From: Clostridia bacterium
Lineage (GTDB): Bacteria > Bacillota > Clostridia > Oscillospirales > CAG-272
Direction of reading: 5' to 3'
Length of the DNA stretch: 52,354 nucleotides
Assembly: GCA_017540175.1 (NCBI GenBank)
Contig: JAFYBN010000020.1
Location: 1-52,354 of the forward strand
A program made the translations under genes and the position numbers. Below, piece after piece: positions 3,257 to 44,955 of the stretch (position 1 is the first letter of the stretch; each line of letters opens with the position of its first letter). The notes under the pieces were generated by a model, which was not told the DNA's origin, did not search any database, and was given only the letters and a program-made list of their open reading frames with translations.

Positions 3257-4345
3257 TCAAGTTTTGCTTCCGCACTCCGGGCAGAAATTCGGCGCCGGAT
3301 CGCCGAACTTTTCTCCGCAGGCGGTGCAGTGCTTCGGAGGCTTGCGGTCCGGCTCCTCTCCGCACAGCGGGCAGACGCGCAGCGGGTTCTGCGGGGTGAG
3401 TTTGCCGATGGCTTCGCTGAGCCGGACGCCGCATTCCGTGCAGAAGTTGCCGACCGGGTGCTCGAGCGCGTGCCCGCAGGACGGACAGAACCCGCCCTTT
3501 TTCGGATCGAAATCCGCGATCTTTCCGCCGCACGACGCGCAGTGTGCCGGATAAGCTCTGCCCGGGGTCGGCGGCGCCATGCCAAAAAACGCGGTCATCG
3601 GCATGGGGGGCTCCATGACCTGCGGGCGATACATCATCGTGTTGACCGCGGGCCGCTTCGCCGCCTCCGGGACCTCGATCTTGTCGAGCATGTCGGGGCG
3701 CGCGAAGACCGACAGCGGCGTGCTCATGTCCATGACGATCATGTTCGAGGTCAGCGTGCCGTCCTCCTTCACGTCGAAGGCCGTCCAGCCGGGGAAGAGG
3801 TCGTTCGTGAGGCTCGCGGGGACGAGGCGGATGCGGTCCTTGTCATAGGTATAGCTGACCGCGTGAAACTCCGAGCCGCCGTCGGCGAAGCCGAAGCCGA
3901 AGATCCTGTTCCCGACGATGGAGACGGTATTCCTGCTGCTCTTGCCGCTCGGGCTCCATTCCGCCCACTTGCCCTGAATGCGGCCGAGCACCTCGTCGTC
4001 GCGGATGATGATGTGCGAAAACGGCCCGTTGTCTACCTTATGTAGCTTGTAGAGTTTCGTCTCCGGGGTGTAATCCCCGTACACGAGCTCGAGCGACCCG
4101 TCCTCCCACGAGAGTTCTTCGATCCGCGTGAACGACTCGCCGAGCAGATTGCGGGACAGGGTGTTGTCCGCGAGGGAGATGACGACCCGCTCCCCCCGTC
4201 CGACCGCGTCGGCGTCGTAGGAGACGGTCGTCTCAAGCATCACGCGGCGGGCGTAATCCCGCACCGTCAGCCGTTTCCCGCTGAATTCGAGGTAATAGTG
4301 GTACCCCTCTTCCCAGTATCCTTCGATTTTTTCCGATGTTTTCAT
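3257..4345 (-). CDS. Protein with beta-barrel-like N-terminus and three C-terminal zinc ribbons
   Basis: 362 residues, cytoplasmic by appearance. The first ~260 residues look like two repeats of a lipocalin-like barrel: one starts IEGYWEEGYHYYLEFSGKRL, the other IQGKWAEWSPSG. The last ~100 residues hold six CxxC pairs (CASC, CPSC, CTEC, CPLC, CTAC, CPEC), enough for three zinc ribbons. GGAGG lies 6-7 bases before the ATG. The gene follows the ion channel gene by only 31 bases on the same strand, so the two are probably co-transcribed from the promoter at 6260-6288. I infer a binding or scaffold role; no enzymatic motif is visible. Confidence 0.75.
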   Translation of the reverse strand: MKTSEKIEGYWEEGYHYYLEFSGKRLTVRDYARRVMLETTVSYDADAVGRGERVVISLADNTLSRNLLGESFTRIEELSWEDGSLELVYGDYTPETKLYKLHKVDNGPFSHIIIRDDEVLGRIQGKWAEWSPSGKSSRNTVSIVGNRIFGFGFADGGSEFHAVSYTYDKDRIRLVPASLTNDLFPGWTAFDVKEDGTLTSNMIVMDMSTPLSVFARPDMLDKIEVPEAAKRPAVNTMMYRPQVMEPPMPMTAFFGMAPPTPGRAYPAHCASCGGKIADFDPKKGGFCPSCGHALEHPVGNFCTECGVRLSEAIGKLTPQNPLRVCPLCGEEPDRKPPKHCTACGEKFGDPAPNFCPECGSKT

Positions 4346-4376
4346 GCGCTGCCTCCGGACAGTTTTTTTCTTTTGC

Positions 4377-6203
4377 TCACGACTCCGCGAGAACGATCAG
4401 GGAGTCCTTTTCCCCGAGCTCGAGTTCTTCGTTCAGCGGAGGGTTGAAAACGCTTTCACGGGTTTCGGCGTCGATGTACCCGATGACGATCATGCGCTGT
4501 TCCAGCGCGATTCTACGGATCTCGGCAGTCGTTTTTTTGCCTGCGCACATCATCTCTCCGGCTTCCATCAGATAGAGCTCGTTTCCGCGGTTGGAGATGA
4601 GCTCCCGGAACGCGTCGATCAGCTCGGGGCTTTCCGCGAGCTGGGCGAGGATCAGGGAGGACATGTTGGAGGATACGACGAAATCCGTATTGTCGTCCGT
4701 GACGACGAGGTGCTGGTTGTGCTCCTTCCGCATCTCCGCTGTAATGCTGAACGAAAGACCGCGGCGGATGCGGATGTCGCGCAGGTTGAGCAGGAGAAAG
4801 ATCGTGTCCATGTCCGCTTCGTCATCCCCCTTCTCATAGTCAGAGAGAATGACGATGTGCTCGGACTTCAGGGCGAGCCGCGTGAGGGCGTCGTCCCGCA
4901 GAAGATTGCTGTGGGAGAAATTGACGGCGAAGGGATTCTTCCGCTTCGCGATCGCCGCCGCCACCGCCTCCCGGTCGGGCTCGCGCGCCGTATTGATGGT
5001 CACCTCCGAAACATTCTCCGGAAGCTCGTACAGAACGGTGTCAAGCGATTCCAGCCCCCCGATGACGGTGACCTTTTCCGGTCTCTTCTCCGCACGGCGC
5101 TCCGGATCGACGGCAAATTCCCGCGTTTTCGCCGCTTCGACGAGCTTCGCGGTGTCGTCCTCCTCCGTGAAGACGAGGATCCGCTCCCCTTCCCCGATCA
5201 CGGTATCGCGCGGCGGGTTGATCCGGATCCCATCCCGCGTGCAGATTCCGACGGGGACGGCGCAGTCGACGCGCAGCGCCAATTCACCGAAGGTCATGCC
5301 CCCGGCCTCAAGAGGCACCGCATAGAGCTCGCACCCCTCGAAATTGAAGACCTCCCGGAACGTCTCGGAAAGCCCGCACTGCGTGCAGGAATGCGCGATG
5401 ATCTTGGCGACGACCTCGCTGGTCTGCAGGGTCGTGACGTTGTGCTTTTCGGCGATGGACGGCGGGAAACGGTACTCCGCCTTCGAGACGACCGCGCCGA
5501 CGCGGACGCTCGAGGTATCCTGACCGATGACCGCGGACACGGCGAGAAGGGCTTTCGTCGTCCGGTAATCGTCCGTCGGGCTGATGATGACCGAGCGGCA
5601 GGCGGAAAGGGCGCACCGCTCGAGCGCTTTCGGGTCGAAGATATCCACCGTCCGGCAAATGATCCGGACGTTTTTCGGTTTTTCGACGTTGTCGGCAATG
5701 TACTGCTGCATTTCTTCCTGCTCGATATCGTCCGCGACGACGATGCAGCAGGGCTCTTCGGCCGCCGCCAGAACGAGCTGCTGGAGCAGGGTGTATTCGC
5801 CCGGATAGAAGCCGAGCACGATGATGTGATCCTCTTCGACGACGGCGGACGAGCCCCGTTTGAGGCTGGTGATCTTTTCCTCGATCCCGCTCGAGATGAT
5901 GCCGATGAGGATGCTCGTGATAAAGAGCCCCGCGATCGCGGCGAGGGACATCAGGATCAGATAGACGATCCCGCCGTCTTCAAAGGAGGGCATCCACGCG
6001 TTGATGACGGTCGCCGCGCTGTCCCAGAAGGCGGCGAGAAAACCGTCCTCACCGTTTAACTGAAAGAGCACGATGACGAGCGCGATGAGGAGCACGATAA
6101 AAATCGACATGATGGCGAGCAGCCGGATCAGCCCCATGCTGCCGCCGGAGATCCGGTTGTCCAACCAATAGAGGAACCTCTTTTTGAAACCGGGTTTTTT
6201 CAT
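4377..6203 (-). CDS. CASTOR/POLLUX-type ion channel protein with RCK-like NAD-binding domains
   Basis: 608 residues. Two hydrophobic segments lie at the N-terminus (about residues 22-48 and 83-107). A Rossmann-like regulatory region follows, beginning DHIIVLGFYPGEYTLLQQLV, with further strands (CCIVVADDIEQEE, VRIICRTVDIFDP, CRSVIISPTDDY). This is the architecture of the CASTOR/POLLUX/SYM8 family, related to RCK/TrkA domains gating cation channels. A second nucleotide-binding-like half follows (KVTVIGGLESLDTVLYEL). I prefer the ATG at 6203 over 6209: GGAGG is 6 bases from the former but touches the latter. The canonical K+ selectivity signature is not obvious, so ion specificity is open. It heads an operon with the zinc-ribbon protein. 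Confidence 0.85.
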   Translation of the reverse strand: MKKPGFKKRFLYWLDNRISGGSMGLIRLLAIMSIFIVLLIALVIVLFQLNGEDGFLAAFWDSAATVINAWMPSFEDGGIVYLILMSLAAIAGLFITSILIGIISSGIEEKITSLKRGSSAVVEEDHIIVLGFYPGEYTLLQQLVLAAAEEPCCIVVADDIEQEEMQQYIADNVEKPKNVRIICRTVDIFDPKALERCALSACRSVIISPTDDYRTTKALLAVSAVIGQDTSSVRVGAVVSKAEYRFPPSIAEKHNVTTLQTSEVVAKIIAHSCTQCGLSETFREVFNFEGCELYAVPLEAGGMTFGELALRVDCAVPVGICTRDGIRINPPRDTVIGEGERILVFTEEDDTAKLVEAAKTREFAVDPERRAEKRPEKVTVIGGLESLDTVLYELPENVSEVTINTAREPDREAVAAAIAKRKNPFAVNFSHSNLLRDDALTRLALKSEHIVILSDYEKGDDEADMDTIFLLLNLRDIRIRRGLSFSITAEMRKEHNQHLVVTDDNTDFVVSSNMSSLILAQLAESPELIDAFRELISNRGNELYLMEAGEMMCAGKKTTAEIRRIALEQRMIVIGYIDAETRESVFNPPLNEELELGEKDSLIVLAES

Positions 6204-6259
6204 ATCCATCCTCCTTCGGGATTCTCATTGGCACAGGCGGGCGGCGTTCTCTGTGTATT

Positions 6260-6288
6260 ATTATACACCGCGCCAAACGGAAATACAA
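6260..6288 (-). promoter_or_regulatory. Promoter of the ion channel operon
   Basis: On the minus strand, TTGTAT (6283-6288) and TATAAT (6260-6265) are 17 bases apart, with TGTG before the -10. The start codon is about 57 bases downstream of the -10. Confidence 0.8.
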
Positions 6289-6380
6289 GACCCGGCGCGA
6301 AGATTTGCGTCGGATCGGCGCGCACGGACGCGGACCCTGTCGGGGGGAGTAGGAAAATCGGCCGAAAATCCCGAATCCCC

Positions 6381-6409: not shown

Positions 6410-6527
6410 GGAAGCGGCAGATCACGGCTCCGCACGGCAGGGGCCGGTTCCGGAGAGGCTGCGCTTTCGGCGGGAAAAAACGAAAGGCGGCCGATCCGAA
6501 GTTGAAAAAAAGAAGGAGCTTTGCATC

Positions 6528-7727
6528 ATGAAACAAGTCGTACTTCGCTTTATGGCGTGCAGCGATCTGCACTACCGGGACGCGGACTGCGTGGAGAAGA
6601 CCCGCTTCGAGGAGGGACTGCGTCAGCTCTATGCCTACGCCGACGCCCAGCCTTACACCGCGGTGGACGCGATCTACGTCGTGGGGGATTTCGCGACCGG
6701 GGGCACTTACGAACAGATGAAGCTGGTCAAGGAATCGCTCGAGTGCGGGGTGCGCCCGGAGACGGTCGTCAACCTGTGCATGGCGTCCCACGAATATATG
6801 GGACCGGACCGGGAGGCGGGCGCGCGGGAGCGGTTCGACGAGATCTTCGCCCAGCCCGCGGACACGCACCGGGTCATCAAGGGCTTCCATTTCATCTCCG
6901 TGACGACGACGGATGGGTGCCGGTTCCGCGAACCGCAGCTGGAGTTTGCCGCGCGGGAACTGGAGGCGGCACGGGCGGATGCGCCGGACAAGCCGATCTT
7001 TTTCTTCCAGCATCCCCATCTCTCGGACACGGTGTACGGCAGCATCGGCTGGGGCGGGGGCGAGCTCATGCCGATCCTTGTGAACTACCCCGGGATCATC
7101 GATTTCTCGGGGCATTCCCACGCGCCGATCAACGACCCACGCTCCATCCATCAGGAGCACTTCACCTCCGTGGGCACGGGGACCTTCAGCTATTTCGAGC
7201 TGGACGAGTTCGACAAGATCTACCGCACCTTCCCGCCGGAAAAAGAAAAAGCCGCCCAGATGCAGATCGTGGAGGCCTTCGACGACGGCAGCGTCGCGAT
7301 CAAGCCCTACGACGTGCTCACCGGACAGTTCTTCCATGCGGGCTGGACGGTCGAGAAGCCGTGGGAGCCGGATTCCTTCGTCTACACCCGCGAAAAGCGC
7401 ATCCGCGCGGCGAAGAAGCCGTTCTTCCGCCTCGGCGCGTTCCTCGCGGCGGAGCAGACGGCGGAGGGCTTCACGGTCGTCTTCGACCACGCGGACGGGG
7501 CGGGAGAGGACGTGAACGATTACGTGATCACGGTGCGGGACGGGGAAAACCGCGTCGCGCGGCGCTTCGTGCTCTGGTCGCCGTACTTCCTCATGGAACG
7601 GCCCGCGCGGATGACCCATACGATCCCGCCGCTCGCCCCCGGCACGTACACCGTCACGGTCCGGGCGCGGGGGTTCTGGTACAACAGCTCGGACGAGGCG
7701 CTCGAGACGACGGTCGTGTGCGGGTAA
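6528..7727 (+). CDS. Calcineurin-like metallophosphoesterase with C-terminal beta-sandwich
   Basis: 399 residues. The metallophosphoesterase motifs appear in order: SDLHY (Asp13, His15), VGDF (Asp54), ASHE in place of the usual GNHD/E near residue 86-89, FQHPHL, and SGHSHAP for the GHxH motif. These normally hold two metals that hydrolyse phosphomonoesters or diesters. The change of Asn to Ser in the third motif removes a usual metal ligand, so activity or metal use may differ. The last ~110 residues look like an Ig/Fn3-like sandwich (GTYTVTVRARGFWYNSSDE). No signal peptide is seen. GAAGGAG lies about 11 bases before the ATG. It stands alone under its own promoter. Confidence 0.85.
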   Translation: MKQVVLRFMACSDLHYRDADCVEKTRFEEGLRQLYAYADAQPYTAVDAIYVVGDFATGGTYEQMKLVKESLECGVRPETVVNLCMASHEYMGPDREAGARERFDEIFAQPADTHRVIKGFHFISVTTTDGCRFREPQLEFAARELEAARADAPDKPIFFFQHPHLSDTVYGSIGWGGGELMPILVNYPGIIDFSGHSHAPINDPRSIHQEHFTSVGTGTFSYFELDEFDKIYRTFPPEKEKAAQMQIVEAFDDGSVAIKPYDVLTGQFFHAGWTVEKPWEPDSFVYTREKRIRAAKKPFFRLGAFLAAEQTAEGFTVVFDHADGAGEDVNDYVITVRDGENRVARRFVLWSPYFLMERPARMTHTIPPLAPGTYTVTVRARGFWYNSSDEALETTVVCG

Positions 7728-37844: not shown

Positions 37845-39554
37845 TCACGGCAGGGCGCGGATGGTCTTGTCGAGATATTTGACGCGTCTCTGCACGGCGT
37901 TCTCGAAATAGGAGAGGGAATCCGCTGTGCTCGTCTGCGGCCAGCGCTCGAGATTCCTTGCCCACGCGCCGGAGGAATGGAGCAGATCCCAGAATTCCCG
38001 CGCGTCGGCGATGAGCGTGTCGGCGTCCGCGATGTGCCCGGACATGATCTTCTCCCAGCGCTCCTTCACATAGTCCGACGCGCCGGGGACGTATTTCAGA
38101 AGCCGCCTGCCGCACTGGAAATCGTAGGACGCGGTGATCGCGCCCGAATTCTCATAGAGATAATTGTTCGCCCGCTCGCCGTTCCACCCGAGCCCGAAGG
38201 TGATGTCGAGGTCCCATGGATAGGCGGTCATCTTTCCGTCGACCGAGGCGTAATAGGTGTTTTTCCACGTGTTGTCCGCCGCCATCGCGACGTTGAGAAA
38301 CAGCCAGTATTCGAGCATATTGTGCAGATCGGCGACCTCTCCGATGTGCGCGGCGAATTCCTTTCCGTCCGCCTCATAGCAGAGCCGGACGTATTCGGCA
38401 AGATTGTCCCACGGGTTCCCGGTCCCGTCCTGCGCTGACGGTTCCGTCGACGAGTCGGGGTATTTCTTTTCCATCGAAGAGTAGGCCGCGCTGTCCGGCT
38501 TCTGCCGCGCGAGCCCGGCGGAGCCCGGCACGTCCCAGCTCACGCATTTGAACAGCGAATCGCCGCGTCCGGCGTCGAGGGAAAGCATTTTCGCGTCCAC
38601 CCGTTCCATGAGCACGTAGAGCCCGTAATACCGGTTCCCGAGGATCAGCTCCGCGTACTCCGCGCCCATCGGCGCGGCGTTCAGCGCGTCGGAGGACGCG
38701 GTCATGCGCTCCCACAGCCGCCATCCGACCATGTCGCGCACGTGGGTGTTGTCCGAATAGCTCGCGTAGAGGATCCAGTCGTCGTCCCGCCGCATTCCGA
38801 GCAGGGGGAGGTTTTTCTTTTCTCCCTTCTCGTCAAGCAGCGTGAGCCGGAACCCGGTTTTCGAAAGAGAGGCGGAGGACGCGCCGCGCACGCTCACCTC
38901 CGCGCGGGAAGCCGTGTATCGGACGCCGCTCTCCGCCGCTTCCCAAACTTCAAATGCGGCGGGCATGGGGGTCGTGCCGACCGTGCGGCGTTTCTCCTGA
39001 TCCATCCGAACGGACAAAACGGGCAGCGTGGTGAAGACGAGCTCAAAGGAGGCGTGGGCGGACTCCGTAAAAACGGCGATCCGTGCCGGGACGCTCTCCC
39101 GCATCATCCGCGCAAAATCCGCGTCCGGCAGGGCGGCGTCAAGAAGCACGGAGGCTTCCCCGCCCTCCCCGTCCTCTGCCGAAAGCCCGGTGAGGTTTTC
39201 AAGTCCGAAATCCGCCGTCACGGGCAGCCAGAATCGTTCCTCCGCCCGCGGAAGGGGAACGCCGCCGAAGCGCAGCGTGAAGCTGTCCGGGGAATTCTCC
39301 CGCCCCTCGGACACCGCGTCGATCTCGGCCCGGTCCGCGAACCGGGCGGTACCCGTCCCGCTCTCCGGCGCGGGGGCTTTCTCTTTCCCCGCCCCGACTC
39401 CGTCTCCGCGAGCGGGCCGATCCTTCCCGCTTTCCGCACTCTCCCCGGCTTCAGCGGTCTCAGCAGTCTGGACGGGCGCGGGCAAGCTCTCTTTGGCGCA
39501 CGAAAGCAGCAAAAAAAGAGCGGCGAGCAGCAGACAAACGGCACGGCGCGGCAT
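37845..39554 (-). CDS. CotH kinase family lipoprotein
   Basis: 569 residues. The signal peptide MPRRAVCLLLAALFLLLSC ends with a lipobox, then a ~60-residue Glu/Ala/Gly linker. The CotH domain runs from about residue 200: VSVRGASSASLSKTGFRLTL, YGLYVLMERVDAKML and AYPWDLDITFGLGWNG (with the DxD-like metal-binding acidic residues) are typical. CotH proteins are atypical protein kinases; in Bacillus CotH phosphorylates spore coat proteins, while secreted homologues are linked to the cell surface or carbohydrate machinery. GGGGAGG lies 7 bases before the ATG at 39554; the longer frame upstream is not used. It has its own promoter with a palindrome in the spacer. Confidence 0.88.
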   Translation of the reverse strand: MPRRAVCLLLAALFLLLSCAKESLPAPVQTAETAEAGESAESGKDRPARGDGVGAGKEKAPAPESGTGTARFADRAEIDAVSEGRENSPDSFTLRFGGVPLPRAEERFWLPVTADFGLENLTGLSAEDGEGGEASVLLDAALPDADFARMMRESVPARIAVFTESAHASFELVFTTLPVLSVRMDQEKRRTVGTTPMPAAFEVWEAAESGVRYTASRAEVSVRGASSASLSKTGFRLTLLDEKGEKKNLPLLGMRRDDDWILYASYSDNTHVRDMVGWRLWERMTASSDALNAAPMGAEYAELILGNRYYGLYVLMERVDAKMLSLDAGRGDSLFKCVSWDVPGSAGLARQKPDSAAYSSMEKKYPDSSTEPSAQDGTGNPWDNLAEYVRLCYEADGKEFAAHIGEVADLHNMLEYWLFLNVAMAADNTWKNTYYASVDGKMTAYPWDLDITFGLGWNGERANNYLYENSGAITASYDFQCGRRLLKYVPGASDYVKERWEKIMSGHIADADTLIADAREFWDLLHSSGAWARNLERWPQTSTADSLSYFENAVQRRVKYLDKTIRALP

Positions 39555-39586
39555 GGCACAACCTCCCCGAGAAAGATCATGGGAAC

Positions 39587-39615
39587 AGTATAGCACAATC
39601 CGCGACGGATTGCAA
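39587..39615 (-). promoter_or_regulatory. Promoter of the CotH gene with a palindromic spacer
   Basis: On the minus strand, TTGCAA (39610-39615) and TATACT (39587-39592) are 17 bases apart. The spacer region holds a perfect inverted repeat, CAATCCG-CGA-CGGATTG (39596-39612), placed where a repressor would block RNA polymerase. Confidence 0.75.
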
Positions 39616-39664
39616 GAGCCGCCGCGTCGTCGAAGAGCGAGCCAAAAACCAGAAAAACCGGGCG

Positions 39665-39697
39665 GCGCAGTTTTCCCACATGGAAAACAACCTGCGC
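39665..39697. repeat. Two-part inverted repeat in the CotH/methyltransferase gap
   Basis: GCGCAG-TTTTCC, CACAT, GGAAAA, CAAC, CTGCGC: two stacked stems of six bases with a 4-base bulge. It lies between two divergent genes and may be a regulatory site or a transcript hairpin. Confidence 0.5.
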
Positions 39698-39743
39698 AGC
39701 CGGAGAACGGGGCCTCCGCGTTCACGGCCACGACACAAATATG

Positions 39744-39752
39744 TGGTATGAT
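39744..39752 (+). promoter_or_regulatory. Extended -10 promoter of the methyltransferase gene
   Basis: TGG-TATGAT, 36 bases before the start codon. No clear -35 box is seen, as is common for extended -10 promoters. Confidence 0.55.
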
Positions 39753-39788
39753 TTCAGAAGAAAACCGAAGAAAGGACGGCGAAGTCCC

Positions 39789-40553
39789 ATGGAATACAGA
39801 AAAATCTTCGATACGATCCCCGACGCGTTTGACCGCTGGCGTCCGCGGTACTGTTCGGAGCTCTTTGCCTCGCTCATCACCGCCGCAAAGATCGGTCTCG
39901 GAAAAACGGTGCTCGAGATCGGACCGGGCACGGGACAGGCGACGGATCCGATCCTGAAAACCGGCTGTGACTATCACGCCGTGGAGCTGGGCGAGCACTT
40001 ATGCGAAAAGATGTGGGAGAAATACGGGCATTACCCGAATTTCGAGCTCTTCTGCGGCGATTTTGTCACGGAGGATTTCGGGAACGCGCGGTTCGACCTC
40101 ATCTATTCCGCCGCGGCGATCCAGTGGATCCCGGAGCGGGACGCCTTTCAAAAATCCTTTGATCTCTTGAAGCCCGGCGGGACGCTCGCCATGATGCTGA
40201 CCGTGGGCGATTACCGGACGCCGGACGAAGAGCTGTATCAAAAAATCCAGAAGGTCTACGCCGATCACTTCAAACCGGAGACCGCGTACCGGGACATGCA
40301 CGCCCCGTTCCGGTACGAGAACGCGCCGGAATACGGCTTCGTCGGTTTCGAGCGGCGGGAATTTCACGGGCGGCGCGTCTTCACGGCGGACGAATACGCC
40401 GCGCTCTGCGGGACGCACTGCGATCACCTCGTGATCCCCGAGCCGGAGAAGACCCTTTTCTTCGACGGGCTGAGAAAAGCGGTCCGGGAGGCGGGAGACA
40501 GGATCGTGTTCGAGGATACCCATGTGCTGTACCTCGCGCAGAAACCGGGATAA
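39789..40553 (+). CDS. Class I SAM-dependent methyltransferase
   Basis: 254 residues. Motif I is VLEIGPGTGQATDPIL (about 41-56), the acidic end of strand 2 is the Glu in YHAVELGEHL, and motif II/III regions read FDLIYSAAAIQWIPE and LLKPGGTLAMML. This is the methyltransferase-11 type that acts on small molecules; the substrate is not evident. The ATG at 39789 lies 14 bases after AAAGGA, a long spacing; a start at 39741 in the same frame would overlap the -10 box and is rejected. A terminator follows within 10 bases of the stop. Confidence 0.88.
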   Translation: MEYRKIFDTIPDAFDRWRPRYCSELFASLITAAKIGLGKTVLEIGPGTGQATDPILKTGCDYHAVELGEHLCEKMWEKYGHYPNFELFCGDFVTEDFGNARFDLIYSAAAIQWIPERDAFQKSFDLLKPGGTLAMMLTVGDYRTPDEELYQKIQKVYADHFKPETAYRDMHAPFRYENAPEYGFVGFERREFHGRRVFTADEYAALCGTHCDHLVIPEPEKTLFFDGLRKAVREAGDRIVFEDTHVLYLAQKPG

Positions 40554-40558
40554 ATAAT

Positions 40559-40590
40559 GCGGACTCTTTTTCGAGTTCGCAACTTTTTTT
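40559..40590 (+). terminator. Terminator of the methyltransferase gene
   Basis: GCGGACTC and GAGTTCGC pair over 8 bases (one G-U), with a 6-base loop, followed by AACTTTTTTT. Confidence 0.85.
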
Positions 40591-40615
40591 CCGTGAATCC
40601 GGTGTCCGGGTGCGG

Positions 40616-40704
40616 TATAATGGGCATGCCGACGGGGAAAGAACCGCAAAGCGCTTCCTTCCCGCCGACAGCTCCTTGACAACCGCATACACAGATCATA
40701 ACAA
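40616..40704 (+). promoter_or_regulatory. Two candidate promoters of the large structured RNA
   Basis: P1 has a perfect TATAAT (40616-40621) but no clear -35. P2 has a perfect TTGACA (40676-40681), a 17-base spacer and TAACAA (40699-40704). Either would start transcription into the structured region, near 40628 or 40711. Confidence 0.6.
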
Positions 40705-40872
40705 GTTCCTCGAGGCCATTTTGCATCTCAGTGCATAAACGGGATGAAAACCGTTCTGAGAGGCGTCGGCTTTCGGCCGTGGGACGGTCGGAACGCCCGC
40801 ATTGGGGAAAAGCGCGGGGGATACTCCGCGTCAGTGCCCTTCCCTGCCCGGGCGACCGGACGGGGGAATGCC

Positions 40873-41691
40873 GACAGGCAGTAAATGCAGAGCCGTGCCG
40901 GAGGAAAGCAGATCAAAGCGCAGCGTCTGTCGCCGGTCAATAGACGCCCTCCCGAAAGGAGGGAATAACCCGGAATGCCGCGGGGCGGTGCCCGCAGGAG
41001 CGCGGTCGGATTTACGAGGATCCGATCCGTTCCGGGAAGACCGACAAACCGGTTTCCACTGAAGTCCCGAAAGGGATGTATAAGACGGATGGCTGACCCG
41101 AACAGCGGAATCGTGGAAATCTCGTTCCCGTATACGATCACAATAACACCGCTCAAGATGTTATAAAAAGCTTGCCGGAGGATCCGTGAAGGGTAAAGGC
41201 AACCAATCCTTTTTGAGCTCGGCGGTTTAGGCCGCGGGATGCGCGGACAGGAGTCGCTTCCTGTCAACCGGCCGCATCTCCTCAATGGCTGAACAGGTCT
41301 GAATTTTCGGTCGGTACCGTGAAAGCGGGCAAGATGGCCCGGAGGAACTTGTTATGGCGGACGCGGGCGCCGACCTTTGACCGGACGAAAAAACGGGCTG
41401 TGGGGCGCAAGCTCTCCCGCGGCAGACCGGCAAGACCGGAAAGCCCCCGCATCCGCTTTCGATCCAGCAGCTTTCACAACCCGGTGCCAAAGTGTCATCA
41501 CGCGCCCGGGACATGCCCAATGGGAGCTGAACGGAAGGGATACCTTCCGAAATCAGCCCGCGCTCGGCGGCGACGCCGCGCGCACAGGCGAAAACGCCAA
41601 CCCGACGGGCAAGGTGCAGAAGGTCGGAGACCGTTAACGCAGGAATTCTGCCGCCGACGCAATAGACGCCTCCTGTGGAGGAAGAATCCGG
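40873..41691 (+). repeat. Internal duplicated RNA module, copies at 40873-40973 and 41604-41691
   Basis: Both copies read GAC(A/G)GGCA, then GCAGA, then CGGAG, then TCTG(T/C)CGCCG, then CAATAGACGCC, then a hairpin (CCCTCC/GGAGGG or CCTCC/GGAGG) and GAA(T/G)AA(C/T)CCGG. The paired stems differ in length and sequence while the flanking single-stranded words are conserved, as in a folded RNA domain rather than a recent DNA duplication. Confidence 0.75.
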
Positions 41692-41965
41692 TTCCGGCTC
41701 CGAGTCGGTCACTCGGAGCACACACCGGAAACCCTGACCCGGGAAACAAGTCGGCCGCCGTTGAACGCGGTCTGAGAAAGGACCGCGGTATAAGGCAGAG
41801 TTTCCGTACCAGTAGCTTAATCGGTAAAACCAACTGCCGGAAGGCAGCTATTTCAAGTGAAAGCTGGGGGTAACAAATCCCTCCCGGATTCCACGGGTAA
41901 CCGTGGGGGCAGCGCGGTGTTCGGACGGCTACCGGACGCAAGCGGACTTACCGGCGGCGGAACAA

Positions 41966-41989
41966 ACGATGTACGGCACGATGTACGGC
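41966..41989 (+). repeat. 12-bp perfect tandem duplication within the large RNA
   Basis: ACGATGTACGGC occurs twice in a row at 41966-41977 and 41978-41989. Confidence 0.85.
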
Positions 41990-42184
41990 GAAAGCCGGCG
42001 GAAGCTGCTGGATCGAAAGCGGAACACATCATGCGGTATAAGCGGGGCTCAAACGCCCGCGTTCGCGGCAATTGCCTCGGTTCAGGCGGGAAGAGCCCCA
42101 CAGCCCGACGGGAGCATCCGCGTCCCATTCTCCATTCGATCGCTGTCGTTTACGGATCCGCACAAGACGGAAGGAGGGATGTCC

Positions 42185-42589
42185 ATGAACAAACGCTGTA
42201 CGAACTCATACTGCCGGAAAACCTTCTCCACCCTGAATTTCGACGGCCATTGCCCGTGGTGCGGCAAAGCGTATCCCCAGCTTGCTCCTGCCGTAAATGG
42301 CACATGCCGCGGCGCATTCATCAAACTGCAGGCAACGAATGGAAAGAGACCCATGCCTCTGTGGATCGACCTTACAGAGGTCCTCGACCATATCCGCGCC
42401 GATCGGCGCCTTTACGCCGCAAAGGCGCTCCATACCCAGTTTCAGGTCCGCGGGTATCGGGCTGATTTGAGAAGCGTGCTGAACTTCTGCCGGGCTCTTC
42501 AGGATGGGAAACAGCCCTGCACCGTCTGGCACAAAACCGGCGAGATCAGAGACAACCTGCCTGTGGTGAAGGCGAGGGATGGGGGGTAA
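42185..42589 (+). CDS. Small zinc-ribbon protein downstream of the large RNA
   Basis: 134 residues. The N-terminus MNKRCTNSYCRKTFSTLNFD carries CxxxxC, followed by CPWCGKAYPQ, together a four-cysteine zinc ribbon within the first ~28 residues. The C-terminal half has a helical stretch RRLYAAKALHTQFQVRGYRA that loosely recalls the ribosomal L7/L12 C-terminal domain; I treat that as a weak resemblance. AAGGAGG lies 7 bases before the ATG at 42185 and only 1 base before an in-frame ATG at 42179, so 42185 is the start. It directly follows the structured RNA and is closed by a strong terminator, so the RNA and protein may be one transcript. RNA binding is a reasonable guess only. Confidence 0.8.
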   Translation: MNKRCTNSYCRKTFSTLNFDGHCPWCGKAYPQLAPAVNGTCRGAFIKLQATNGKRPMPLWIDLTEVLDHIRADRRLYAAKALHTQFQVRGYRADLRSVLNFCRALQDGKQPCTVWHKTGEIRDNLPVVKARDGG

Positions 42590-42628
42590 AGCGGCACGGG
42601 CACAAATCCCTTTCGCGCGCAGAACCGC

Positions 42629-42676
42629 ACGGGAGCCGTTTCCGAAACGAAATCGGAAGCGGCTCCCGCTTTTTCT
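42629..42676 (+). terminator. Strong terminator after the zinc-ribbon gene
   Basis: GGGAGCCGTTTCCG (42631-42644) and CGGAAGCGGCTCCC (42654-42667) pair over 14 bases with one G-U, loop of 9, followed by GCTTTTTC. Confidence 0.92.
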
Positions 42677-42690
42677 GTTGATGCGCGGAC

Positions 42691-44955
42691 TCACCCCGAG
42701 GTTTCGCGGTATTCCCGCACGAAGCGCAGGATCGGTTCCCGCGGCAGGGATCCTTCTTCCCCGACGAGGAAGAGATAAACCGCGCGGCATGTCGTTCCGT
42801 CCTTTGCGGCCTCGCAGACGACCGAGAAGGACTTTCCCTCGGGGACCGGGAAGGAAACGCGGTTCCCGGAGAGCCCGACCGGGATGCTCAGCTTTTCGTT
42901 GTCCGCGCCGGAGAGGAGCGAATACCCGTCCCGGTACGCTTTGACCGAAAGAGAATCCGCTCCGATCCCGTGATCATCGCAGAGGAACGCGTACCCCTCG
43001 AAACCCTCGCCAACTCTCCAGACGAGCCTGTCGTAGCGAAGCGTGAGCCGGAGCGGCTTCTGCGCGTCGCGCCAGAACAGGAGGGCGAGCTTCGGATTCC
43101 CGTAATAGTCGACCATCGACGTGCAGGAGACGTTCGGCCACGGCTCGTTCAGCTGCCACACGATGGAGCCGACGTTTTCCTGCGCGGCGGGCGCGAACGC
43201 CTCCCCGGGGGCGAGGAGTGCGGGCTTCGCCGTTTTCGCGCGGCGGCGGTGGGCTTCGACGGCATAGCGGATCCCCTCCGCCTGCAGGTACTGGCTGAGA
43301 TCGCAGAGCTCTTCGAGGTCGTCGATCTCCCCGAACAGCGGGCGTTCGCGGTAGGCATAGGTGTCCCACCACTCCCCGCGGTGCCGCCAGACGAGGCTCT
43401 CGCCCATCGTCGTCACCTTTTGATGCTCGGGCGTGAGAACGGAGCGGATGGAATCGATGTTCGACATGCCGTCCACGCCGAATTCGCTGTGCAGAAGGAT
43501 CGTGGATTTGTTGTACAGCTCGTACTGGGTGCGCACGCCCTCGTATTTCCACGGGCCGTGGATGTCCTGATTGCGCTCCGGCCTCATCGGATCAAACCAC
43601 TCCGTCGGACCGGACGCGGAGGTCGGCAGCATGAGCACGTCCGGCGCGAGCTCGTCTGCGATCCCTTTCAGCATGGCGAGGTTTTCGTCCCCGAAGGTCG
43701 AGGGGATCCCGCTCTCGTCCATCAGCTCGTTGCCGCCGCTTAAATAGGTCAGGGAGACGTGGTTCCGCTTTACCGGCAGGGCGGCGCGGGCGGTCTGCCC
43801 GATCAGCTTCAAAAACTCCGGGCGTTTCGACGGGATGTTGTCGATGCCGGAGGAGGACTGGATGAACTCCTGCCAGACCATGATGCCGTATTCGTCGCAT
43901 AGATCGTAGAAATCCTCGCTCTCGATGACGCCGCCGCCCCAGACGCGGATGAGGTTCACCCCGGCGTCCCGCGCGAGGGAGAGCAAGCGCTCGTACCGTT
44001 CGCGCGTCACCGTTCCGATCATGTGGTCGAGCGGGGTCATGTTCACGCCCTTGATGTAGACGGGCACGCCGTTCACGACGGGGATATAGGGCAGCACGTC
44101 CGGGTCGGCGCAGTCCGGCTTTCGGTATTCGACGGTCTTCAATCCGACGCGGAACGTCCTCTCGTCGTCGGCAGTGGTCAGCGTCAGATCGTATAGGGGC
44201 TGCTCTCCCCAGCCGTTCGGATACCAGAATTCGGGGTCGGGAACGGTCAGCGTGAGCTCCCCGCACGTCGTCCATCCGTCGCCGGCGAGCTTCCCGCGAA
44301 GGGAGAGGAGGGCGCGGAACTTCCGGTTCGCCGCCGAAACGGTCAGCTTTCCCCCTTCCCGGCAGCGGATCATCACGTCACGGACAGGGTCGGAGCAAAT
44401 GTCGAGATACGCCGCGCCGTCGAGCCCGAGGTCGACGAGGCGCGTGCCGAAATCCCATTTGTAACCGAACCGCGCCTTCTGCGTCCAGGTGCGGCTGGTG
44501 TACCCGATCTGTCCCATTTCGTCCGGCGCGCTCTCGAGCACGACCGTGAGCGTGTTCTCCTCCTCGCGGAGTACCTCCGTCACGTCGACGGTCAGCGGCG
44601 CGTACATGCCGGTGTGCTCGGCGATCTTTCGGTCATTGAGATAAACGTGCGCGTGATAGTCGATCCCTTCGAGCACGAGCCGGACGCGCCGCCCGCCCGT
44701 CTCCGGCATGGGGAACGAGGTCATATAGCTCCAGAAGCGGTTCGCGACCCATTCGCACAGCAGGGAGTTCATTTCAAAATACGGATCGGGGATCACCCCG
44801 GCGCGGCGCAGGTCGTCGTAAACGCTCCCCGGCACTCTCGCGGGAACGCGCGGCGTGACGGCCGAGAATTTTGCGCCGGTCTCGACGGACGCGCCCTGCA
44901 TCACGGTCCAGGGCCACGACCCGGCGACGGTCCAGTCACAAAGGGGGATTCTCAT
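42691..44955 (-). CDS. Beta-mannosidase-like glycoside hydrolase family 2
   Basis: 754 residues. The N-terminal sugar-binding-like domain has the beta-mannosidase pattern VPGSVYDDLRRAGVIPDPY and KARFGYKWDFGTRLVDLG. In the TIM-barrel, SGGNELMDE supplies the acid/base Glu after Asn, and LLHSEFGVDG supplies the nucleophile Glu. It should release beta-linked mannose from the ends of mannans or N-glycans. No signal peptide is present, so it is cytoplasmic and acts on imported oligosaccharides. At 754 residues it is shorter than many (~820-850), with a reduced C-terminus. The start lies 16 bases after a CGGGAGGT site. It shares a symmetric promoter region with the divergent serine hydrolase. Confidence 0.93.
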   Translation of the reverse strand: MRIPLCDWTVAGSWPWTVMQGASVETGAKFSAVTPRVPARVPGSVYDDLRRAGVIPDPYFEMNSLLCEWVANRFWSYMTSFPMPETGGRRVRLVLEGIDYHAHVYLNDRKIAEHTGMYAPLTVDVTEVLREEENTLTVVLESAPDEMGQIGYTSRTWTQKARFGYKWDFGTRLVDLGLDGAAYLDICSDPVRDVMIRCREGGKLTVSAANRKFRALLSLRGKLAGDGWTTCGELTLTVPDPEFWYPNGWGEQPLYDLTLTTADDERTFRVGLKTVEYRKPDCADPDVLPYIPVVNGVPVYIKGVNMTPLDHMIGTVTRERYERLLSLARDAGVNLIRVWGGGVIESEDFYDLCDEYGIMVWQEFIQSSSGIDNIPSKRPEFLKLIGQTARAALPVKRNHVSLTYLSGGNELMDESGIPSTFGDENLAMLKGIADELAPDVLMLPTSASGPTEWFDPMRPERNQDIHGPWKYEGVRTQYELYNKSTILLHSEFGVDGMSNIDSIRSVLTPEHQKVTTMGESLVWRHRGEWWDTYAYRERPLFGEIDDLEELCDLSQYLQAEGIRYAVEAHRRRAKTAKPALLAPGEAFAPAAQENVGSIVWQLNEPWPNVSCTSMVDYYGNPKLALLFWRDAQKPLRLTLRYDRLVWRVGEGFEGYAFLCDDHGIGADSLSVKAYRDGYSLLSGADNEKLSIPVGLSGNRVSFPVPEGKSFSVVCEAAKDGTTCRAVYLFLVGEEGSLPREPILRFVREYRETSG

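Follow-up and report, generated by a model that had tools for sequence, protein, structure and literature searches.

Two diverged ROOL RNAs in tandem ahead of a zinc-ribbon gene: a candidate RNA cage with two kinds of subunit

The window analysed here, a stretch of 52,354 nucleotides from a Clostridia bacterium (contig JAFYBN010000020.1), contains two full-length ROOL RNAs (RF03087) that lie head to tail, as found at the gathering score in an Rfam search of the whole window. Copy A has a length of 645 nt and copy B of 561 nt, and both cover the full model from position 1 to 574 with scores above the gathering score of 99.1 (Table 1). When 39500-43500 was rescanned with looser filters, allowing matches up to E 1, these two copies were still the only ones. 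Instead of one new giant RNA, the region holds a known cage-forming RNA in two diverged copies, and their tandem arrangement is its unusual part. The presence of the same tandem together with a zinc-ribbon gene in two other genomes suggests a cage made from two kinds of subunit.

Table 1. Features of the tandem ROOL locus (window coordinates)
Feature	Position	Strand	Basis or remark
TATAAT, candidate -10 box of the transcript	40616..40621	+	read from the sequence; no full sigma-70 site by consensus scan
boxA-like motif CCTTGACA	40674..40681	+	motif near the 5' end of 13/23 ROOL loci
Extended terminal helix P1 of A, 5' strand	40697..40724	+	28-nt arms, 89% complementary to 41329-41356
ROOL copy A	40703..41347	+	RF03087 full length, 177.7 bits; fold z -7.65
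A loop L8 (GCGGUG)	40985..40990	+	hairpin 40980-40995; L8 named by own mapping, with bridge B4 of Kretsch 2025 and the Rfam consensus as guides
A strand J6/8 (GACCGA), complement of B loop L8	41039..41044	+	pairing analysis
A linker flank GCCGG	41174..41178	+	pseudoknot partner of 41268-41272, by inspection
A J17/18 CCGGC	41268..41272	+	pseudoknot partner of 41174-41178, by inspection
Extended terminal helix P1 of A, 3' strand	41329..41356	+	pairs with 40697-40724
13-bp helix enclosing B, 5' strand	41394..41406	+	100% complementary to 42095-42107; in the MFE fold
Terminal helix P1 of B, 5' strand	41452..41473	+	22 nt, 100% complementary to 42002-42023
ROOL copy B, shortened interior linker	41456..42016	+	RF03087 full length, 190 bits; z -9.22 with flanks
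B loop L8 (UCGGUCA)	41705..41711	+	hairpin 41697-41719, loop CGGTC
B strand J6/8 (UGACC)	41735..41739	+	pairing analysis
Terminal helix P1 of B, 3' strand	42002..42023	+	pairs with 41452-41473
13-bp helix enclosing B, 3' strand	42095..42107	+	pairs with 41394-41406
Zinc-ribbon protein gene, 134 aa	42185..42589	+	relatives 3' of B in two other tandem loci
Terminator-like hairpin, 16 bp then T-rich tail, closes the unit	42630..42668	+	terminator scan

Two ROOL RNAs in place of one giant RNA

An earlier note on this DNA had taken 40711-42170, which comprises both ROOL units plus flanks, for a single new giant RNA longer than ROOL. The apparent length of about 1.45 kb arises because two complete ROOL units of ordinary size adjoin, and a new giant family is ruled out by the two Rfam matches; the note itself had named a match to a known family as what would end that reading. 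Its description of the stretch, as structured RNA with a duplication, stands nonetheless. Strong structure is found at 40697-42107, the duplicated module corresponds to the two ROOL matches, and the small protein gene does lie 3' of the stretch. Between 40703 and 42016 there are 16 non-overlapping perfect hairpins (stem of at least 5) compared with 7.4 +/- 2.2 in 30 dinucleotide shuffles, and the reported GNRA loops are recovered as two strict cases against a mean of 0.13 in dinucleotide shuffles. The stretch had also been called gene-free. Open reading frames are present on both strands, but at E 0.1 Pfam has no family for any of the seven that were checked, one of which continues into the frame of the zinc-ribbon gene, and a protein-coding reading was rejected.

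No match to GOLLD, OLE, a group II intron or rRNA was found by Rfam at the gathering score in the window. An assembly artefact is unlikely, because the same order is found in three genomes. ROOL RNA reportedly goes back to Weinberg 2017. Another published example is the lncRNA of L. salivarius (Cousin 2017, PMC5643018). In the accessible portions of Kretsch 2025 (PMC12286853), Cousin 2017 and PMC12191101 no description of tandem ROOLs was found; those of Kretsch 2025 make no mention of paralogous, duplicated or hetero-oligomeric ROOLs, and those of PMC12191101 none of hetero-assembly. In excerpts of PMC12248019 and PMC7567579 the word "tandem" refers to other things, and Lou 2025 (PMC12515178) is, judging by its excerpt, a comment on Ling et al.; an earlier mention in Weinberg 2017 is possible.

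Folding and structural selection

Both copies are under structural selection. The fold energy of 40690-41360 (A) lies at z = -7.65 and that of 41380-42110 (B with flanks) at z = -9.22, each compared with 20 shuffles, which is the control that the earlier note had proposed. Covariation supports a conserved secondary structure as expected of a ROOL: double changes are seen at 57 of 204 pairs in the A clade (5 rows) and at 48 of 163 pairs in the B clade (3 rows), while the shuffles have a mean of 18.8 such pairs for both clades and none of 500 reaches the observed number. The proposal that the pairing words vary while the pairs are preserved is thus borne out within each clade, and the reading as a functional structured RNA is backed by fold energy and covariation together. 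Sliding the partners by 1-3 columns lowers pairing from 94-95% to 37-47%, a comparison that favours the true over the slid pairing to begin with, as the structures were taken from the same alignments.

The 13-bp helix enclosing B has no counterpart of at least 11 nt in the two other tandem loci (L085 and L094). A separate observation concerns a 30-nt stretch at 41660-41689, around P7 of B, which is identical in all three B copies. The B copies overall differ at 20-28% of aligned sites, and the identity around P7 exceeds what structure alone requires.

Occurrence of the tandem and phylogeny of the copies

A conserved ROOL pattern led to 18 stretches in viral contigs and a second pattern to 12 viral stretches, and whole-record searches found a ROOL-model match in 17 of 30 viral records, with one match each, some of them near record ends and one partial. 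Among species genomes the conserved pattern gave 28 stretches. Whole-record searches of 19 genomes gave a match in 6; the other 9 stretches and three more loci, scanned as stretches, held no ROOL at the gathering score. Of 146 genomes searched around G096, three have ROOL, one of them being G096. Nine ROOL genomes were found in total (G000, G089, G096, G098, G099, G101, G103, G537 and G616), and three of them carry the tandem: that of the window, G098 (locus L085, called R here; MAG RGIG7282, water buffalo cecum) and G537 (locus L094, called G here). In R, A lies at 5697-6344 and B at 6464-6999; in G, A lies at 1442-796 and B at 763-217 on the minus strand. The order from A to B to the zinc-ribbon gene is the same in all three. 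Two further A copies are known: in G096 (L087) the contig ends 84 nt after A, and in G103 (L086) no B was found in the contig, nor in the genome, where 30 of 77 candidates were scored.

The A-B pair is rare. The host genome, of 3.9 Mb in 125 contigs and 93.5% complete, yielded no further ROOL, and no second ROOL genome was found among 59 close genomes, 25 of the genus and 395 of the family, which are overlapping groups; among 60 relatives of G098, ROOL was found in G098 alone. Samples above 40 genomes were searched with stricter filters and few candidates scored (at most two per listed genome in the family search), and the negatives from this wider sampling are therefore weak. Distant blastn found no similar DNA in phages or plasmids, and the A- and B-specific patterns found nothing in viral contigs.

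Elsewhere, a single ROOL lies within an array of 22 tRNA genes (L089:5268-11867), which also holds two sub-threshold matches to YrlA (Y RNA-like). At another locus (L095), a large SRP RNA at 4131-4394 lies about 1 kb from a single ROOL at 5447-6013 (358 bits).

A tree was built from 28 ROOLs, of which 27 are different, over 514 columns and without the partial match L077. All five A copies group in a single clade (100/100, bootstrap/SH-aLRT) and the three B copies in another (100/99), and the two clades are sisters (99/97). The A and B rows differ in base composition from the other ROOLs. A RY-coded tree of 27 rows keeps A (99.4/99, SH-aLRT/bootstrap) and B (98.9/100), and the sisterhood of A and B drops to 74.2/61. 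The two clades are separate, and the two types therefore predate these loci; that A and B derive from one another is probable, though less certain.

Copies A and B are not equivalent

A and B are not equivalent, as B has a shortened interior linker. The interval from GUAGC to GUGAA measures 39-88 nt in single ROOLs, 73-79 nt in A and 22-40 nt in B. According to Kretsch 2025 (PMC12286853), the linker sits disordered inside the cage. On inspection, most single ROOLs carry CUGA at the linker flank and UCAG in J17/18, which can pair (UCUGA:UCAGA). In the A copies GCCGG and CCGGC (CUGGC in R) take the place of these words and remain able to pair. By eye, such pairing words between linker flank and J17/18 were seen in all five A copies and in none of the three B copies, so that the linker pseudoknot appears to have been lost in B.

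Contacts between L8 and J6/8

Kretsch 2025 (PMC12286853) describes bridge B4 as a contact between two chains, in which the L8 of the first pairs with the J6/8 of the second; both names were transferred onto the Rfam consensus by our own mapping. Single ROOLs have a helix of at least 4 bp between their own L8 and J6/8 in 16 of 18 cases (two near-duplicates left out). In the tandems, the B loop and the A strand match in the canonical register at four of four positions in the window, in G (with one G-U) and in R, with the words CGGU:ACCG, UAGU:ACUG and UCGU:ACGA, respectively. The second position is G-C in the window, A-U in G and C-G in R. The outer U and A of the B loop can pair with each other to leave the loop CGGUC, and if this closing U-A pair opens, the contact in the window extends to 6 bp. 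The reverse contact of A L8 with B J6/8 amounts to 3, 3 and 4 bp at the three loci.

The main rival to mixed assembly is that A and B are paralogous ROOLs which each form a homomeric cage of their own, with the tandem serving dosage or two cargoes and no mixing. We consider this possible, if somewhat doubtful. The ROOL structures described so far are homomeric, as octamers and hexamers, in the accessible parts of PMC12286853 and PMC12191101, and in the window A could pair with A over four of four positions and B with B over 5 bp in another register. The A copy of L086, which lacks a B, also fits separate cages, and the lone A of L087, whose contig ends soon after, pairs with itself over 4 bp, which counts against mixed assembly. 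However, A-A pairing needs two wobbles for its four pairs in G and fails in R (one of four), and B-B pairing falls to 3 bp in both, whereas the pairing of the B loop with the A strand holds in all three loci.

The statistics for the B-A contact are modest. Shuffling at single loci gives p = 0.01, 0.19 and 0.39 for the B loop with the A strand, and the matched arrangement is the best of 6 permutations, for which the floor is 1 in 6; these values concern hand-picked L8 and J strings, which are short words from three loci. In a mismatched control the B loop of the window makes four of four pairs with the A strand of G as well, and so do the A loops of these two loci with both of their A strands. 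The automatic fold of the R segment lacks the B hairpin, and the loop in G is ambiguous. The pairing of B loop and A strand across three loci is thus a lead. The L18 loops (bridge B6), compared by eye, gave no clear homo or hetero signal.

Transcription signals and the zinc-ribbon gene

The motif CYTTGAHA, which we take to be the boxA of rRNA-type antitermination leaders, occurs between -45 and +15 relative to the ROOL 5' end at 13 of 23 distinct loci, viral contigs among them, and at four of the five A copies. Only 0.17 occurrences are expected from 3 matches in 21,965 nt of flank, and this enrichment is inflated to some degree because inspection of these same flanks had guided the choice of motif. 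Literature searches for printed sequences did not confirm the identity of the motif as boxA. ROOL may use rRNA-type antitermination. Promoters upstream of the stretch, as the earlier note had them, are partly recovered: a consensus scan of 40400-42800 found no sigma-70 site, but the TATAAT remains as a candidate. The same region has 4 terminator-like sites where 3.2 are expected, and so no overall excess; on the plus strand of the window there is none between 40581 and 42630. We infer that A and B share one transcript, and a promoter for B may lie within A.

A relative of the zinc-ribbon protein was found by tblastn 3' of B in all three tandem loci. In L085 and L094 the identity is 63-67% across the N-terminal 35-39 residues; the homologue in G is cut by the contig end. 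The tblastn matches at the other ROOL loci, many of which have short flanks, all had E values of 2.2 or more. Neither a Pfam family at E 0.001 nor a PHROG at E 1 matches the 134-aa protein, and the five weak Pfam matches at E 1 all stay under their cut-offs. The gene has one copy in the host genome; the protein was not found in plasmids, nor a relative in viral contigs, nor residues 1-112 of the R homologue in phages. The R protein (L085:7687-8484) also has a domain that resembles the C-terminal domain of RNA polymerase alpha (PF03118, E 3.9e-8). Between B and this gene, at L085:7000-7400, repeats of about 120 nt can be seen by eye, and sequence resembling them also precedes ROOL A.

This arrangement could also mean that the zinc-ribbon gene has B, or A and B together, as its cis-acting 5' leader, a reduced ROOL that has become a regulatory element of the mRNA. 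Such a role would agree with the position of B ahead of the gene in three of three tandem loci and with the terminator-like sites on the plus strand of the window, of which there is none between B and the gene and one after it. We regard it as unlikely, since in L085 about 690 nt with repeats separate B from the gene, and B matches the full ROOL model including P1, which is beyond the needs of a leader.

The flanking genes look ordinary chromosomal. By Pfam they comprise CotH-like, methyltransferase, GH2 glycosidase, two PF00144, GDPD, AMMECR1/LigB and SpoIIE genes and, further, an ABC transporter, a histidine kinase and a radical SAM protein; several other scanned proteins have no Pfam match. 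No tRNA was found in the window by ARAGORN. A prophage location is unsupported, given the lack of tRNA, the chromosomal-type flanks and a comparison of 4 proteins with PHROGs. The locus thus lies outside the phage, prophage or tRNA-island setting that is usual, though not required, for ROOL; ROOL also occurs in non-prophage regions, according to PMC12191101.

A model of mixed assembly

We favour a reading in which A, B and the zinc-ribbon gene form one unit whose RNAs are two specialised ROOL subunits that co-assemble into a cage, and we hold it at a little less than an even chance. The gene and both RNAs would be transcribed as one unit in the order A, B, zinc-ribbon gene, with the boxA-like leader before A giving antitermination. 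A long terminal helix closes each RNA, and at these helices A and B may be cut apart or else be left joined. The two would then co-assemble into a ROOL-type cage as specialised subunits, in which the L8 loop of B would pair with the J6/8 strand of A, and A would supply the long interior linkers that B has lost. We infer such mixed assembly from three loci. A natural heteromeric RNA nanocage with linker-bearing and reduced ROOL subunits alternating in the shell is a more tentative proposal, which we rate as possible rather than probable.

The spacers bear on whether the two RNAs might remain a single covalent molecule of two domains, with four molecules per cage. The spacer of G, at 32 nt between Rfam ends, and the pairing of the B loop with the A strand would suit this, but the spacers range from 32 over 108 to 119 nt (R), and A and B are each closed by a long P1 helix where processing is likely, which makes a joined molecule quite improbable.

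Since the partners are here on separate stretches of RNA, the tandem allows a direct test of selection on inter-subunit contacts in the cell. It connects ROOL with a protein gene and possibly with an rRNA-like mode of transcription. To our knowledge, a conserved pair of unlike ROOLs would be the first indication that subunits of an RNA-only assembly can specialise.

Comparison with known systems

Both copies resemble known ROOLs in matching the full model and in their multibranch fold, P1 closure and L8 and J6/8 elements. Unlike these, the locus has two diverged copies in tandem, of which B has a shortened linker and no visible linker pseudoknot, and it has chromosomal-looking flanks, no tRNA in the window and a zinc-ribbon gene on its 3' side. 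GOLLD is likewise a large cage-forming RNA by the literature, but has no Rfam match in the window. A likeness in working only can be drawn to the rRNA operon, which shares the boxA-like leader and the succession of structured RNAs closed by long helices, whereas no rRNA match exists in the window and the boxA identity is presumed. Hetero-oligomeric protein shells, finally, are built from alternating unlike subunits, as a heteromeric ROOL cage would be.
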